A stretch of 64,000 bases of DNA from Chromatiaceae bacterium (GTDB lineage: Bacteria > Pseudomonadota > Gammaproteobacteria > Chromatiales > Chromatiaceae), in the NCBI GenBank assembly GCA_013426805.1, contig JACDZG010000003.1:117127-181126 (forward strand). The letters run 5' to 3'. Below the pieces are notes generated by a model. It saw only the letters and a list, made by a program, of their open reading frames with translations. It did no database searches and was not told the DNA's origin. Of this stretch, positions 19,320 through 27,233 are shown in pieces. Made by a program: the position numbers and the translations under genes. The first letter of the stretch is position 1. Each line of letters starts with the position of its first letter.

Positions 19320-20177
19320 AGGTCTCACATTTCGGGTAGGTGGTGCGGCCACCGGGGCCACCAGGTTCGCGCGCTCGCGCCTTTGGTCTATGGTACCGAG
19401 ACGCGACGCTGGTGTTTTGGGTGACCCAAAAAAAGTCCGGGGCCCCATCACCGGGCTTTGATCAGCGTTCCCGCCACAAGAAAACCGAAAGTCGAGGCGT
19501 TAGTGATCGCTCTCGCGTTTGCGCGGCCCCGGTCCGGCAACGGCCATGGAACGCACCCCAGCCAACCCGAACGATGAATATCCGAGAGCGGCGTCCCGCC
19601 GCGATGCGGGGCCGCGGTGACCGCTAGCGCTGCGGCTTCGCGCCCGGCCCGTCGCGGCGAGACGCCGGTTCCTGCAGGTTCGCTGCGCGACCTGCACGGG
19701 AACGCCTCCAGTGCGCGAGACCCGGATACTGGCCGGAACCATGCTCAAGGCTGAAACCTGTAATATATGCGACAAGGCACGTCGACTTACCCGCGAGACA
19801 CCTCAGCCCGGCGCGTTACCCTCGTTCTTTAATCCTCTCACAGAGACACGGAGGCACGGCGAATGAAGTACCCAACACAATAGATCCTTGAGACCAAGAC
19901 CTGGATTTGGTCAGGCCGGCACCCGCCAGCGGCACGATCAAGACATAGACCGTCGTGATGGCCTTAATACTTGTTTATAAAATATTTTTTCTTTGTGTCT
20001 CCGGGTCTTCGTGAGAGAACTTCTCGTTATCGAGAGATGGGTAGAGGTATGACTCCAGTCGCATCTCCTGTTGTTGAAGGTGCTCGCTCGCGCAACGCAA
20101 CCATTTGAATGCTTGCGCCCGCGCAACCGACAATAGCGCCAACCCACCGAGCGCCACCCCCTGGCTGTCGACTCTGC
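19320..20177. other. Long spacer without a gene
   Basis: No coding frame with recognisable content is present over ~850 bases. The stretch holds short GC-rich palindromes (for example GCGGCTTCGCGCCC near 19630 and GCAGGTTCGCTGCGCGACCTGC at 19674-19695), a pair of inverted arms at 19834-20018, and a TGT-N10-ACA match at 19759-19774. The 3' part is clearly more AT-rich (tract AAAATATTTTTTCTTT near 19979-19994). Confidence 0.5.
19834..20018. repeat. Inverted-arm dispersed repeat (CACAGAGACACGGAGG type)
   Basis: The left arm CTCTCACAGAGACACGGAGG (from 19836) is partly the reverse complement of the right arm (CTTTGTGTCTCCGGGTCTTC, then GTGAGAG; 19991-20017). The same kind of arms, CCACAAAGACACGAAG type, occur at 60712-60839. 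The arms flank about 130 bases without a gene, so this looks like a dispersed non-coding element with terminal inverted repeats. Confidence 0.5.
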
Positions 20178-20193
20178 TGGCACTCGTCTTGCT
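20178..20193 (+). promoter_or_regulatory. Sigma-54 promoter upstream of the SIR2-like gene
   Basis: TGGCAC-TCGTC-TTGCT matches the -24/-12 consensus TGGCAC-N5-TTGC(T/A) with the invariant GG and GC at the right spacing. Transcription would start near 20205, ~30 bases before the GTG start. No TGT-N10-ACA activator site was found within 150 bases upstream; one lies ~400 bases upstream. Confidence 0.75.
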
Positions 20194-20234
20194 TGATTTT
20201 ACAATCCAAGATACGCACAAACAGGTGATCCCCG

Positions 20235-21122
20235 GTGAATTCTCAACTGAACACACTGGCGCAAGGCATCCGCAGCGGTAATATCGTCCCTTATCTCGGC
20301 CCCGGCGCATTGACCGGGGCGACCGACACGATCAACGGTCAGCCAATGCCCGCGGACAGTGACAGCCTGATCCTCGCGTTGAACAATGGCAAGCCCATGT
20401 CGGAAAAGCTCATGTGGGAGTTTCCACGGGCCGCCATGAACGTCGAGTTGAAGCGTGGACGGGGTGCCGTCATCCGTTTCCTCAACACGACCTATGCGGA
20501 GCGCACCTGGACGCGCGCCCCGCTCCACACCTGGCTCGCCTCCGTGTTGCCGCGGTATGTCATCGACACCAACCGCGACACCCAACTTCAGGCTTCCTAC
20601 GTCGGAGTCCCCCACACCCTGGTGCGCGGAATCAGCCGCATTGCCGGAACGGATTACCGCTTCCGCATCGACCACTACGACGGCGCCGCCTATCGTGAAA
20701 TCGCGCAGGAGGAGGTCGATCCCGCACTGCCCGTGCTGTTCAAACCCATGGGCAGCCCGCTGCCGGATGCCGTCTTTATCGCCTCGGACGCCGACTACGT
20801 GGACTACCTCACTGAACTGATGGGCGGCTTTGCCATCCCGTCATTCCTCAAATCGTACCGGCGGGGCCGGCAGTATGTTTTCCTGGGGTTGCGCTTGTTA
20901 CGGGATACCGAACGGATGGTGATGTCGGATATCATCTACAGCGCCGGCGCACCGGCCGGGTGGGCCTTGATCCCGGAACCCTCGCAGAAAGAACGGCGGT
21001 TCTGCGACCGGCAAGGGATTGAGCTCATTGCGGCGGATATCCCCGACCTGCTGGCGGCGGCGCAGTCCGGGGTGCGCGCAACGGCGGACGCCGCCGACAC
21101 CCGCCCCGCGGTCGACTGCTGA
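20235..21122 (+). CDS. SIR2-like domain protein in nif context
   Basis: The 295-aa product starts at GTG 20235 with AGGTGAT upstream. Its N-terminus (IRSGNIVPYLGPGAL) and the later motif YVIDTNRDTQLQ fit the SIR2-like fold: a glycine-rich nucleotide loop and a T/TN-x-D motif. SIR2-like domains bind NAD; in other proteins they hydrolyse NAD or deacylate lysine, but canonical sirtuin catalytic motifs are not obvious. It has no signal peptide or membrane segment. A sigma-54 promoter lies just upstream, a hemerythrin gene follows after 90 bases, and draG and nifB are next to it. Membership of the nif regulon is therefore likely. The function is unknown; a role in NAD-dependent control of nitrogenase is speculation. 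Confidence 0.7.
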   Translation: MNSQLNTLAQGIRSGNIVPYLGPGALTGATDTINGQPMPADSDSLILALNNGKPMSEKLMWEFPRAAMNVELKRGRGAVIRFLNTTYAERTWTRAPLHTWLASVLPRYVIDTNRDTQLQASYVGVPHTLVRGISRIAGTDYRFRIDHYDGAAYREIAQEEVDPALPVLFKPMGSPLPDAVFIASDADYVDYLTELMGGFAIPSFLKSYRRGRQYVFLGLRLLRDTERMVMSDIIYSAGAPAGWALIPEPSQKERRFCDRQGIELIAADIPDLLAAAQSGVRATADAADTRPAVDC

Positions 21123-21212
21123 GACACCTAGGCGAATCCAGTTGCCACCAACCGGGCAGGCGTCGCGCGCCGCCCGCGGGGCAGCAATCAACACGGCGCA
21201 CGCGGAGATGCC

Positions 21213-21638
21213 ATGCCCCTGATTCTCGATTTCGAGTCCCGCTTCCTGCTTGGCATTCCCGCGATGGACCATGTGCATCGTGAGTTGGTGGAGCTGCTCA
21301 ATCGCATGGCCGATGCCGGCAACGCCACCTTTGCTTATCTGTATCCCGATCTCGTCAACCACACGCACGCCCACTTCGCCAATGAAGAGGTGCTGATGCG
21401 CCAGAGCGGCTTCCCGGCCATTGCCGAGCACATGGGCGAACATGCGCGGCTCCGTGGCGAACTGGATGCGTTCGCTCAGGCACTCGACGGCAGGCGCATC
21501 GACGCGACCAGGGACTTTGTGGCCAAACAACTCCCCGCCTGGTTCGCGCTACATACCACCACCATGGACAGCGCACTCGCCGCGCATCTGAAGGGAACCG
21601 CACGAATCAAGAAACCACCCCAAGGAACCATTCGTTAG
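21213..21638 (+). CDS. Bacteriohemerythrin
   Basis: The 141-aa product is a single four-helix hemerythrin domain. The di-iron ligand pattern is complete: His22 (in DHVHREL), His54 and Glu58 (HAHFANEE), His73 and His77 (EHMGEHARL), His114 and Asp119 (FALHTTTMDSA). Bacteriohemerythrins bind O2 and are used for oxygen storage, delivery or sensing. It is cytoplasmic, with no signal peptide. It follows the SIR2-like gene on the same strand and would be co-transcribed from the sigma-54 promoter, which makes oxygen buffering for nitrogenase a reasonable inference. It converges on draG with a 26-base gap. Confidence 0.9.
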   Translation: MPLILDFESRFLLGIPAMDHVHRELVELLNRMADAGNATFAYLYPDLVNHTHAHFANEEVLMRQSGFPAIAEHMGEHARLRGELDAFAQALDGRRIDATRDFVAKQLPAWFALHTTTMDSALAAHLKGTARIKKPPQGTIR

Positions 21639-21664: not shown

Positions 21665-22606
21665 TCACTTCATCAAGCAATGCGGCGACATCCGCAGTAA
21701 GTCCCGCGCCTGATCCCGGCAGGCGGTTGCCGCCTTCGGGTCTAAGGCCGTCAGCCAGCGCCGGGGAATGGCGGCGTGTCCATAGAGCGCACCGGCGATC
21801 ATTCCCAGTATCGCCCCCGTGGTGTCGGCATCGCCGCCGCGATTCACCACTTCGATCAGGGCGCCCTCGAAGGTGTCGGTGGCAAAGAGTGCCTGAAACA
21901 CGGCCTTCAGGGTCTCGACCAGAAAACCGCCGGGGTTTTCCATGCGCCGCCGGTCGTAGCGATACAGGGGCTGTTCCACCACCAACGCCTCGGCCAAGCC
22001 CTTGAGATGACCCATATCACCTCCGAGCAAGGCGGCCTGCACCATGCGGATGACGGTGAGCGTCCCGGCGTCGCCCACGGCACTATGATGGGTCGTATGA
22101 GACTGGATACGATTGGCTTGAGCGACCAGACTGCCATCAGCACCCAGAGTACACAGCGCGATCGGCAATGACCGCATACAGGCGCCATTGCCCGCATCGT
22201 AGTCGTTCTCCGGCATCTGCGTCGCACCGGTCAGACGGTACTGGGAGATGCCGCGGCGCACCGTATGGCCGATGTCCACCGGCTTGCCGCGCATCCACTC
22301 GCTGAAGGCCGCCGCCACGGCCGCCGCCTCCACCCGCCCCTCGGCCAGGATCGCCGCCCCCAAGGCCAGGCTCATTTCGGTGTCGTCGGTTACCTGGCCC
22401 TTACGCAGCCGCAGCCAGCCGCCGCCGCGCATATCCTGATGAATACCGAACTGCTCATGGATCTCGCGCGGCGTCAGAAACTCGACCGTGGCACCCAAGG
22501 CGTCCCCCACGGCCATCCCCAGGTAGGCCCCAACCGCCCGCGCATGCAGCACGTCGGCCGAACACCCGGACCCGGACAGATCAGCTGTCAGTTCCAAAAC
22601 AAACAT
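21665..22606 (-). CDS. draG: ADP-ribosyl-[dinitrogenase reductase] hydrolase DraG
   Basis: DraG removes ADP-ribose from an arginine of NifH and so restarts nitrogenase after ammonium or dark switch-off. The 313-aa product matches DraG closely: AVGDALGATVEF, MRGGGWLRL, GQVTDDTEMSLALG (first metal ligands), DAGNGACMRSLP, and the late metal motif NRGGDADTTGA. I chose ATG 22606, as codons upstream are without pattern. It is the last gene of the nifB operon and follows a 2Fe-2S ferredoxin by 61 bases. Its usual partner draT is not in this window. Membrane sequestration by an AmtB-GlnK pair would be expected from other species. Confidence 0.92.
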   Translation of the reverse strand: MFVLELTADLSGSGCSADVLHARAVGAYLGMAVGDALGATVEFLTPREIHEQFGIHQDMRGGGWLRLRKGQVTDDTEMSLALGAAILAEGRVEAAAVAAAFSEWMRGKPVDIGHTVRRGISQYRLTGATQMPENDYDAGNGACMRSLPIALCTLGADGSLVAQANRIQSHTTHHSAVGDAGTLTVIRMVQAALLGGDMGHLKGLAEALVVEQPLYRYDRRRMENPGGFLVETLKAVFQALFATDTFEGALIEVVNRGGDADTTGAILGMIAGALYGHAAIPRRWLTALDPKAATACRDQARDLLRMSPHCLMK

Positions 22607-22667: not shown

Positions 22668-23018
22668 TCAGTACTGTACCAGGAGGTCCTCGTCACGCAC
22701 GATCATCTGGCAGGCCAGGCGCCATTCGGATGGGATGTCGTCCACCGCCATTTGATCGATGTCTTCCTTGCTGATTTTCCCGAGTTGGCGCAGCACCACC
22801 TTTTCTTTCTCGGTCAGCAGACCGCCCATGCGCTGATTTTTGTTGTCTACGCTCGTGACGCGCACCACACAGTTCCCGCATTCGCCATCCTGGCAATCAT
22901 GATGAACGGGGACCTTGTGCTCCTTGGCGAGCTTGAGCAGGGTTTCGGTATGGCTTCCGGCCACGGCATAGACCGTCTTATCCTTATAGTCAGGGTTTGA
23001 AAACGTCACAAGTGCCAT
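22668..23018 (-). CDS. 2Fe-2S ferredoxin, nif-associated
   Basis: The 116-aa product has a plant/adrenodoxin-like beta-grasp start (MALVTFSNPDYKDKTV) and the cluster motif C-QDGE-C-GN-C (residues ~42-50) with a fourth cysteine in RLACQMIV near 102. The ~50 residues between, including LLTEKEKVVLRQLGKISKED, are a helical insertion typical of a nif-cluster ferredoxin subfamily. It would carry single electrons, probably within nitrogenase maturation or supply. It lies between another 2Fe-2S protein and draG in the nifB operon. Which redox partner it serves is not visible. Confidence 0.88.
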   Translation of the reverse strand: MALVTFSNPDYKDKTVYAVAGSHTETLLKLAKEHKVPVHHDCQDGECGNCVVRVTSVDNKNQRMGGLLTEKEKVVLRQLGKISKEDIDQMAVDDIPSEWRLACQMIVRDEDLLVQY

Positions 23019-23063: not shown

Positions 23064-24702
<1,639 letters not shown>

Positions 24703-24707
24703 GGCAC

Positions 24708-25205
24708 TCACCCGGCAACCCCGAGCGCCACCGGCCGGACGGTCAGACCCGGTGTCGGGCAGACCGGCAGCGGACAATCCGCCAATTGACTGAGACGCGA
24801 ACAGGATTGAAGGTCGACCCCCTCGTCCAGTACCACACCCAGAGCGTCCAGAAACGGACCAGGAGCGAATCCGCAGGAGCGCAGATCCCCGGCTGCGATC
24901 AGTGGCCGCCGGATCAGCAGCGGATCCGCCACCATCAGCGCGAGCGCGCCCGCCTCGCTGAGGTCCGCCGGCCGCACCTCCCCGCTCAGTACGCGGGGCG
25001 CCGTCGGGTTGAACCAGTCGCAGACCGCCAAGTCACCAAAGAAGGGCCTCAAGCGTTCGGGCACCCAATGCTCACTCAGCAGGTTACGAACCTCCAGACA
25101 GTGTCCGATCTCTACTAACAGTGCCTTCTGTCGCGCGTTCGAGACACAACCGGGCTTCTCGTAGAAGACCAGTTCCGCCGGTGTCGGAAGGGTTTGGGTG
25201 GCCAT
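24708..25205 (-). CDS. Nitrogenase-associated ArsC/Spx-family protein (NifO-like)
   Basis: The 165-aa product has the thioredoxin-like start of the ArsC family (ELVFYEKPGCVSNARQKALL, Cys ~20 in the active-site loop) and the family's helical part (NLLSEHWVPERLRPFFGDL, then DWFNPTAPRV and LIRRPLI). The cis-Pro-containing RRPLI segment is conserved. Members found in nif operons are called nitrogenase-associated proteins or NifO; NifO has been linked to molybdenum or nitrate use, but the biochemical role is not established. The C-terminal ~45 residues with PLPVCPTPG are family-specific. It sits between fdxN and fprA with 16- and 5-base gaps. Confidence 0.8.
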   Translation of the reverse strand: MATQTLPTPAELVFYEKPGCVSNARQKALLVEIGHCLEVRNLLSEHWVPERLRPFFGDLAVCDWFNPTAPRVLSGEVRPADLSEAGALALMVADPLLIRRPLIAAGDLRSCGFAPGPFLDALGVVLDEGVDLQSCSRLSQLADCPLPVCPTPGLTVRPVALGVAG

Positions 25206-25221
25206 GATATCAACCTGGGGT

Positions 25222-25500
25222 TCAACGCGCCTGGATCTCGGCTCTGGCCGCGGCCAGGCGCTCCGGGGGGATGCCGGTCAGTGACCCTGGCGGGTTCAAG
25301 GGCACCCCGAGCGAATCCAGAATGACGCCCTCGATCGGGCAGATGCTCGCGCACTGCGGGTCGGGATGCTCCCCTGCGCATTCCGTGCATAAAACGGAAT
25401 GGATCAGGAAATGCGGCTTGGCCTCATAGATGGCCTGACGCGGACACAGCGGCGCACAAGCCCAGCAATTCACGCAGCCTTCGACGATCTGGTATGCCAT
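25222..25500 (-). CDS. fdxN: 4Fe-4S dicluster ferredoxin, FdxN-like
   Basis: The 92-aa product has two ferredoxin motifs: CVNCWACAPLCP (C-x2-C-x2-C-x3-C) and CTEC-x8-CASICP, the extended spacing in the second motif being typical of nif FdxN-type ferredoxins. FdxN ferredoxins donate electrons in nitrogen fixation and in NifB-dependent cofactor synthesis. The gene starts 24 bases after the nifB stop, the usual nifB-fdxN order. The C-terminal helix GIPPERLAAARAEIQA follows the second cluster. The length is normal. Confidence 0.9.
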   Translation of the reverse strand: MAYQIVEGCVNCWACAPLCPRQAIYEAKPHFLIHSVLCTECAGEHPDPQCASICPIEGVILDSLGVPLNPPGSLTGIPPERLAAARAEIQAR

Positions 25501-25524: not shown

Positions 25525-27033
25525 TCAGGCGCGCATGCGCAGCGGCGCCGGCGTCGCGCGTTCCAAGCTCCCGCTCGCCGCCAGTTCGCGATACACCGCC
25601 GCTACGGCGTCTTCGATCGGCTCCATCGCGTGCTCGCCGTTGGGCGCAATACCCGCTGCCTCCAGCGCCCCCCAGGGCTCATAGCCGATCTTGGAGCAGA
25701 GCACCGCCACGCAACCGGAGAGCGCCTGGATCGTCTTCGCCAGGGCCGTCTGCGCATCCCCGCAGGTCTCACCGCCGGAACAATAGAGGTCCACCTTACG
25801 GTGACCGATGAAGCGCACGTCCTGGTCGTTGGCCTCGTAGATCAGGAACTCGGCGGCGTGGCCGAAATGCTGGTTGATCACCCCGCCCCCTTTGGTCGCC
25901 ACCGCGATCAGAGCAGGCGGAGTCTCCCGACGCCGGGCCTTGAGGGCGGTAATCGAGATGAAGGTCTCACCGCTCTTCTTGCGTTGAGCCTCCCGATTGG
26001 CTTCGATCGCCGCGTGAACCTGGCGGCGTTCCTCCATGGCCCGGCCATAATCAATGTCCATGGTCTCGATCTTCTCAAGCGTAAATTCGTGACCGCGATC
26101 CTCACCGAGCATTCCCACCGCGTCCGCCCGGCACTGGCGGCAGTGACGCATCATATTCATGTCACCGGCACAGGCGTCCTGCAGGGTCTGCAGCTCATCA
26201 TGGGTCGGACCGCGCTGGCCCATGACGCCGAAGAAGGTCCCATGCTCGGGCTCGGCAATCAACGGCATCACGTTGTGCAGGAAAGCGCCCTTGGACTTGA
26301 CGACGCGGCTCACCTCCTTGAGATGCTCATCGTTGACGCCGGGAATCAGGACCGAGTTGACCTTCACCAACACCCCGCGCGCGACCAACATCTCCAGCCC
26401 CTTTTGCTGCTGCTCGATGAGGATCGCCACCCCTTTGCGCCCCTTGATCCGCCGCCCCTGCCAGAAGATCCAGGGATAAATCTTGGCGCCCACATCGGGG
26501 TCCACGCAGTTGATCGTGATGGTCACATGATCGATATTGTGGGTGCAGAGTGCATCGACACAGTCCGGCAGCGCGAGCCCATTGGTCGAGACACAGAGCT
26601 TGATATCAGGAGCTTTTTCAGTGAGTTGCCGGAACGTTTCGAGGGTCCGGGCGGGGTTGGCCAGTGGATCGCCCGGCCCGGCAATGCCGAGCACCGTCAT
26701 TTGCGGGATATGCGCCGCAACGGCAATCACTTTCTTGACCGCCTGATCGGGGGTCAGCACCTCTGAAACCACACCCGGGCGCGACTCGTTGGCACAGTCG
26801 TACTTACGGTTGCAGTAGTGACATTGGATGTTGCACGCTGGAGCAACCGCCACATGCATCCGCGCATAATGGTGGTGTGCTTCCTCCGAATAGCAGGGGT
26901 GGTTGTGAACCTTGGCCCGGATATGCTCCGGCAGGTGCGCGAGTGCATCGCCGCTGCTGCCGCAGCCGCTCGCAGAACAGCCGCCGGCAATGGCCGGCGC
27001 GGATCCACTGTGGTCCGAGACCTTCAGCTCCAT
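25525..27033 (-). CDS. nifB: Nitrogenase cofactor biosynthesis radical SAM protein NifB
   Basis: NifB fuses iron-sulfur clusters with a SAM-derived carbide to form NifB-co, the core of FeMo-co. The 502-aa product has the radical-SAM motif C67-x3-C71-x2-C74 (ACNIQCHYC), the family motif NHPCYSEEAHHHYARMH, GIAGPGDPLANP, the GQRGPTHDELQ and HCRQCRADAVG regions binding further clusters, and a C-terminal NifX/NafY-like domain (~385-480, IAVATKGGGVINQHFGHA). I chose ATG 27033 with GGAGG seven bases upstream. A sigma-54 promoter and NifA site precede it. It is the first gene of a seven-gene operon ending in draG. Confidence 0.97.
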   Translation of the reverse strand: MELKVSDHSGSAPAIAGGCSASGCGSSGDALAHLPEHIRAKVHNHPCYSEEAHHHYARMHVAVAPACNIQCHYCNRKYDCANESRPGVVSEVLTPDQAVKKVIAVAAHIPQMTVLGIAGPGDPLANPARTLETFRQLTEKAPDIKLCVSTNGLALPDCVDALCTHNIDHVTITINCVDPDVGAKIYPWIFWQGRRIKGRKGVAILIEQQQKGLEMLVARGVLVKVNSVLIPGVNDEHLKEVSRVVKSKGAFLHNVMPLIAEPEHGTFFGVMGQRGPTHDELQTLQDACAGDMNMMRHCRQCRADAVGMLGEDRGHEFTLEKIETMDIDYGRAMEERRQVHAAIEANREAQRKKSGETFISITALKARRRETPPALIAVATKGGGVINQHFGHAAEFLIYEANDQDVRFIGHRKVDLYCSGGETCGDAQTALAKTIQALSGCVAVLCSKIGYEPWGALEAAGIAPNGEHAMEPIEDAVAAVYRELAASGSLERATPAPLRMRA

Positions 27034-27099: not shown

Positions 27100-27115
27100 A
27101 GCAATGCTTGTGCCA
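27100..27115 (-). promoter_or_regulatory. Sigma-54 promoter of the nifB operon
   Basis: On the minus strand TGGCAC-AAGCA-TTGCT is a perfect -24/-12 element. Transcription would start near 27088, giving a ~55-base leader before nifB. A NifA-type activator site lies ~62 bases further upstream. Confidence 0.85.
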
Positions 27116-27177: not shown

Positions 27178-27193
27178 TGTCGGCAAACCGACA
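27178..27193. promoter_or_regulatory. NifA upstream activator sequence (TGT-N10-ACA)
   Basis: TGTCGGCAAACCGACA is a full TGT-N10-ACA match and is nearly palindromic beyond the consensus (TGTCGG / CCGACA). It is centred about 98 bases upstream of the predicted nifB transcription start, the usual distance for NifA sites. Confidence 0.75.
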
Positions 27194-27233
27194 GGTCACT
27201 GACGGGGGGGTTGTTGGGATAGGAACAGGACGA

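Follow-up and report, generated by a model that had tools for sequence, protein, structure and literature searches.

In a 64,000-nucleotide (nt) stretch of a Chromatiaceae bacterium genome that totals 7.6 Mb (this whole stretch is hereafter called the window), a gene for a SIR2-like protein of 295 amino acids (aa) lies at positions 20235..21122 of the forward strand, beside nitrogen-fixation (nif) genes and directly upstream of a hemerythrin gene. Its open reading frame (ORF), a match to Pfam family PF13289, its sequence family, and its predicted fold place it in a group that we call type A (PnfA-like). We see about an even chance that this SIR2_2 protein is the local PnfA, a non-catalytic, dinucleotide-binding helper that would support nitrogenase during respiration, with the hemerythrin as a predicted O2 buffer. 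A helper that acts after transcription is the most likely function, ahead of a deacetylase or a defense enzyme that cleaves nicotinamide adenine dinucleotide (NAD). Nitrogenase has to be kept in step with oxygen and redox supply, and how free-living diazotrophs achieve this at the post-transcriptional level is only partly understood. A conserved SIR2-fold protein that occurs in nif clusters as far apart as those of purple sulfur bacteria and of rhizobial symbiosis plasmids, with NifA-type control and a broken catalytic site, is a concrete and testable candidate, and the published low-O2 phenotype of its apparent counterpart adds to its interest.

The window protein matched SIR2_2 (PF13289) with 32.6 bits at a cut-off of 24.5, and AlphaFold and Foldseek supported a SIR2 fold, with a structural match over most of the chain. 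No family was found for it in NCBIfam. The catalytic Asn is kept as N113, as it is in all 416 unique type A sequences, in which the N-R-D and K-P-x-G motifs are also invariant (416/416). The position of the catalytic His (K-x-H-G motif) is occupied by M172 in the window protein and by Met (348 sequences), Leu (57), Thr (6), His (3), or Val (2) across type A. This site was located via the KLHGS motif of a canonical SIR2_2 protein of the same genome, which carries TTNWD and KLHGS and aligns with K-M-H-G of ThsA; the profile alignment used is weak (E 0.012, probability 3.7%), although in register. Drift at this position, even to His in a few sequences, speaks against a conserved catalytic base here, and we infer that the nif-linked SIR2 proteins are inactive. 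The idea of a NAD-consuming enzyme, raised by an earlier note on this DNA, is thus weakened, as the His of catalytic SIR2 proteins is gone in 413 of 416 close relatives. The four-Cys zinc module, a defining feature of classical sirtuin deacylases, is also missing from the window protein, which has two Cys in its 295 residues. The His-bearing type A proteins are L137 (Marinobacterium lacunae, P0236), P0237, and P0273. Catalytic SIR2 proteins depend on both the Asn and the His. In ThsA, the N112A and H152A mutations each abolish NAD+ cleavage, and the H152A effect may stem from lost oligomers (PMC7272460).

Conservation of the SIR2-like protein was compared with that of its neighbors. Averaged over the 33 loci that hold SIR2, draG, and nifB, identity to the respective window protein was 68.9% for SIR2, 78.5% for NifB, and 64.1% for DraG; for the hemerythrin it was 53.0% (19 loci). 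The Lamprocystis orthologues are 90-91% identical to the window SIR2-like protein. Fusion proteins, considered because of long frames around some homologues (590 and 439 aa), were rejected: the two frames that were viewed contained no SIR2-linked domain, and by eye the extra part looks non-coding.

At the sequence level, two nif-linked SIR2 subfamilies are newly distinguished here, namely type A, to which the window protein belongs, and type B. The latter is 26-29% identical to the window protein, carries Trp at the position of the catalytic Asn in all 17 sequences, and has the His in 8 of these 17, which include near-identical sets (L123/L152/L153, L155/L156, and L019/L158). Type B was found in the rhizobial nif cluster of all four plasmid regions that were opened (of 72 records), directly after nifT in three of them. 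Three genomes (G1028, G827, and G976; loci L169, L170, and L171) have a full type B gene and a second, short fragment of type B elsewhere. In some gammaproteobacterial genomes that have nifD, type A is absent and a type B protein is present instead (loci L158 and L120, genomes G046 and G201).

The family is closely tied to nitrogen fixation. In a class-level sample, it occurred in 20 of 369 genomes (19 with type A and one, G201, with type B), nifD occurred in 32 (31 over the cut-off plus the split gene of G272), and both genes were present in 19. A profile of both types detected the family in 17 of the 398 genomes of a phylum-level sample, where nifD was present in 41 and both genes in 15. The Fisher p values for co-occurrence of the SIR2-like gene with nifD were 2e-22 (class) and 1e-14 (phylum); the two samples share some genomes. 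With types A and B taken together, nif genes were found in every carrier (20/20 and 17/17): the three carriers without nifD hold a full NifB, and in G112 the SIR2-like gene adjoins a NifH fragment. In the phylum sample, every carrier had a single full-length copy, which was type A in 6 and type B in 11, and none had both, although a second type could be missed because six candidates were scored per genome. The gene was further detected in 15 of 390 Pseudomonadales genomes and in 15 of 55 genomes of a relatives sample, two of them weakly. The tie to nif clusters proposed earlier is therefore upheld, and other nif clusters do contain the gene.

The promoter before the gene was analyzed in the window, in the whole genome, and in related loci. 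As the earlier note had stated, an exact sigma-54 -24/-12 promoter-like sequence (TGGCACTCGTCTTGCT, 20178..20193, forward strand) stands 41 bases before the GTG start at 20235 of the 295-aa ORF. Counts alone were less telling: boxes with at most one mismatch numbered three in the window against 1.91 expected from shuffles, which is no excess, and five exact boxes were found in the 7.6 Mb genome against two for a backwards control pattern. Of the five, one each precedes the SIR2-like gene, nifB, and nifH. The remaining two (L002:1501-1516 and L005:1501-1516) stand before an ORF of unknown kind and, by eye, a DnaJ-like ORF, with no evident nif link. The conservation of the box upstream of relatives is the stronger argument, and on this sequence evidence the promoter is not a chance match. 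It was assessed at 80 related loci (the best 80 of 515 relatives, including some near-duplicates, so that counts are not independent), 78 of which had enough upstream DNA for scoring. The best box scored at least 9 of 11 in 65 of the 78 regions (shuffle mean 1.28, largest 4) and below 8 in seven. The position before the start is likewise conserved, as 65 of the 71 boxes scoring at least 8 begin 45-70 nt before it. NifA-type TGT-N10-ACA sequences were present within 300 nt upstream in 55 of 78 regions (shuffle mean 4.27, largest 11). Together, the conserved boxes and NifA-type sites bear out the proposed nif-type promoter.

Six TGT-N10-ACA sequences occur in the window. The one upstream of the SIR2-like gene (TGTAATATATGCGACA, 19759..19774, forward strand) is near-identical to sequences upstream of the orthologue in loci L021 and L022. 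It lies 476 nt before the start, which is unusually distant; its counterpart in Lamprocystis purpurea lies at 271 nt. Since the same site is closer to the start there, insertions between this NifA-type activator-like sequence and the promoter are suggested in the window. Between the two elements, at 19835-20017, lies an inverted repeat whose 23-nt arms are 83% complementary and separated by 137 nt.

The single-domain hemerythrin gene (21213..21638, forward strand, 141 aa) follows the SIR2-like gene. Its product matched Pfam PF01814 and exceeded the TIGR02481 cut-off (74.4 bits over 51.75). All seven di-iron ligands are present, with no substitution across 31 aligned sequences, one or two of which are gapped at some sites. 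The hemerythrin domain and the complete ligand set described earlier thus stand, whereas the label bacteriohemerythrin is not backed by model NF033749 (65.9 bits, cut-off 84). Among the 80 related loci, hemerythrin was directly downstream of the SIR2-like gene in 30, draG was convergent within 3 kb in 32, and both were found in 19, so the association with these two genes recurs. In 21 loci, draT lay on the same strand no more than 6 kb upstream (within 500 nt in 17 of these), and 13 loci had the order draT - SIR2 ... draG. NifH was divergent from the SIR2-like gene in 26 loci, within 3 kb in 21 of these. Some tested nif gene or draG was near the SIR2-like gene in 60 of the 80; the "NifE" between NifH and NifD in the neighbor tables reflects cross-matching among related subunits of nitrogenase.

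The fullest gene order was nifH(-) draT(+) SIR2(+) hemerythrin(+) draG(-) fdx fdx flavodiiron gene nifO fdxN nifB nifA(-). In the window genome, draT is divergent from nifH on another contig (C69), and the nifH-to-nifA string appears to be broken in two. In Pseudomonadales, type A was divergent from nifH in 11 of 12 loci and likewise in two of three further regions. The guanine-plus-cytosine content of these first 12 loci is 43-57%, and we take them not to be P. stutzeri-like on that basis. In two homologue searches, no Pseudomonas, Stutzerimonas, or Azotobacter appeared among the 120 best.

The remaining genes of the string lie on the reverse strand of the window. draG, for the ADP-ribosyl-[dinitrogen reductase] hydrolase (21665..22606; TIGR02662, 385.6 bits, cut-off 337.05), is convergent with the SIR2-like and hemerythrin genes and lies 26 nt from the hemerythrin stop. 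In order of position, it is followed by two 2Fe-2S ferredoxin genes (22668..23018 and 23064..23351; both PF00111) and a gene for a flavodiiron-type protein with metallo-beta-lactamase and flavodoxin domains (23413..24702; PF19583 and PF00258). This flavodiiron-type gene, inside the draG-nifB string, occupies the same place in many related loci. A nifO-like gene for a nitrogenase-associated ArsC-family protein (24708..25205; TIGR01616 over cut-off) and a gene for an fdxN-like 4Fe-4S ferredoxin (25222..25500; Fer4-type matches below the Pfam cut-off, best NCBIfam match YfhL, also below cut-off) come next. nifB (25525..27033; TIGR01290, 653.3 bits) is taken to start at the ATG downstream of its own exact -24/-12 promoter-like sequence (27100..27115), which is accompanied by two TGT-N10-ACA pattern matches (27178..27193 and 27212..27227). 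The reported convergence on draG beside nifB is confirmed by these draG and nifB matches.

In the proposed mechanism, the SIR2-like protein would be made from a NifA/sigma-54-dependent promoter, as is reported for its apparent counterparts and indicated here by sequence. It would bind NAD(H) or a related nucleotide without turnover and would act on nitrogenase activity, its electron supply, or DraT/DraG control. The neighboring hemerythrin, which is absent beside most copies, probably buffers oxygen nearby and may work with it. For a SIR2 fold that retains its Asn motif but has lost the His, a ligand-binding, non-catalytic helper is the simplest reading, and the protein perhaps senses NAD(H). 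The placement after transcription comes from the apparent counterpart: because the pnfA mutant loses activity at low O2 with its nifH transcript unchanged, PnfA would act after nifH transcription, in respiring cells. More speculatively, Proteobacterial diazotrophs might share a dedicated "nif pseudo-sirtuin" in two forms, each lacking a different catalytic residue, that reads the NAD(H)/ADP-ribose state and gates nitrogenase and DraT/DraG, with the hemerythrin as the oxygen arm; we regard this wider scheme as tentative and doubtful.

Several observations weigh against the helper reading. The SIR2-like gene was lacking, at the thresholds used, in 13 of 32 (class) and 26 of 41 (phylum) nifD genomes, and it is therefore not needed for nitrogen fixation; the same-genus genome G003 also lacks a match. 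At 20 of the 80 loci, no tested nif gene or draG was seen within the DNA examined, and just 30 have the hemerythrin directly downstream. The type A (A1) profile gave no sequence-level match to PDB chains at E<=10. The His is present in three members of type A, including one from Marinobacterium lacunae. The identification with PST1325 rests on name, place, and size. In addition, the N112A and H152A mutants of ThsA no longer bound NAD+ (PMC7272460), so NAD is perhaps not the ligand of a His-less protein.

The alternative to which we give most weight, while holding it unlikely, is that the protein is part of the DraT/DraG switch, binding NAD or ADP-ribose and modulating NifH ADP-ribosylation. 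Such a link is plausible because the gene often sits between draT and draG, in the upstream (21/80, 17 within 500 nt) and convergent (32/80) arrangements given above, and the window genome keeps draT. However, two of six carrier genomes tested (G295 and G189) have no DraT match, and Zymomonas mobilis is reported to be without draT and draG (PMC8594446), yet has a SIR2-like gene in its nif cluster. The protein might instead serve as a structural or assembly factor of nitrogenase that works independently of any nucleotide and simply borrows the SIR2 fold, which we consider quite improbable. Its strong conservation, between that of DraG and NifB, combined with a catalytic position drifting among Met, Leu, Thr, Val, and His, would fit such a role, but the Asn-Arg-Asp and Lys-Pro-x-Gly motifs lining the SIR2 site are invariant, pointing to a retained ligand site.

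An active NAD-dependent lysine deacylase adjusting NifA, NifH, or NifK has been proposed for Zymomonas ZMO1821, which is located in the nif cluster and is up under N2 fixation; nitrogenase proteins are acetylated (PMC8600466). The predicted SIR2 fold agrees with this, and the broken catalytic site argues against calling nif-cluster SIR2 proteins deacetylases; a deacylase here seems improbable. The nearest solved folds found by Foldseek are defense proteins, and a defense-type SIR2 NADase could by chance lie beside nif genes. This explanation is disfavored as extremely improbable: PADLOC defense models gave no match to the SIR2-like protein at E<=1, the nif context and promoter are conserved, the carriers of both samples hold nif genes, and the catalytic His is lost. 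Homology to an unrelated defense-type SIR2 protein, which would have undone the original proposal, was not indicated by PADLOC.

PST1325 of P. stutzeri A1501, located opposite nifH and dependent on NifA and RpoN, was named pnfA in 2010. At 0.5% O2, nitrogenase activity in its non-polar mutant was 23% and the nifH transcript was unchanged; the mutant was wild-type-like under argon, lost nitrate-supported fixation, and still grew without fixed nitrogen (PMC2820453). The window gene is likely the counterpart of pnfA, judging from name, place, and size, and PST1325 would then belong to type A. The module that the earlier note called undescribed thus has an apparent counterpart with a published mutant, besides the deacetylase proposal for Zymomonas, and the nitrogen-dependent expression it anticipated is reported for PST1325, Rcc03262 of R. 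capsulatus, and ZMO1821 (PMC2820453, PMC6925177, PMC8600466). In the open literature searched (subscription papers lay outside it), no paper combined Sir2 and nif genes with hemerythrin and nitrogen fixation, and we found none on hemerythrin with dra, SIR2, or pnfA.

PnfA resembles the window protein in its SIR2 family label (PST_1325 was tabulated as "SIR2 family protein" in 2024; PMC11332353), its size of ~32 kDa, and its -24/-12 box and NifA site. PnfA is reported only in diazotrophs, and the same holds for the SIR2-like family in both samples. PnfA is divergent from nifH, whereas the window gene is not, yet type A is so arranged in most Pseudomonadales loci; unlike PnfA, the window gene adjoins draG/nifB and has a hemerythrin gene downstream. 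In the excerpts of PMC2820453, PnfA was likened to UspA/ETF-alpha and SIR2 was not named. Type B proteins (e.g., RHE_RS30545 of R. etli p42d) share the SIR2 family and nif-cluster location with the window protein but have Trp instead of Asn, with the His kept in about half of them. R. capsulatus Rcc03262, a NifA-dependent SIR2 family protein that went undetected in nifA mutants (PMC6925177), was placed in type B solely by its position beside NifT. In contrast to the defense SIR2 NADases ThsA, DSR2, and KomC, the window protein has neither the catalytic His nor an effector or sensor domain, and its gene has a nif promoter and context. It also differs from FAM118A/B, noncanonical vertebrate sirtuins that keep both His and Asn and require both for activity (PMC12700824).
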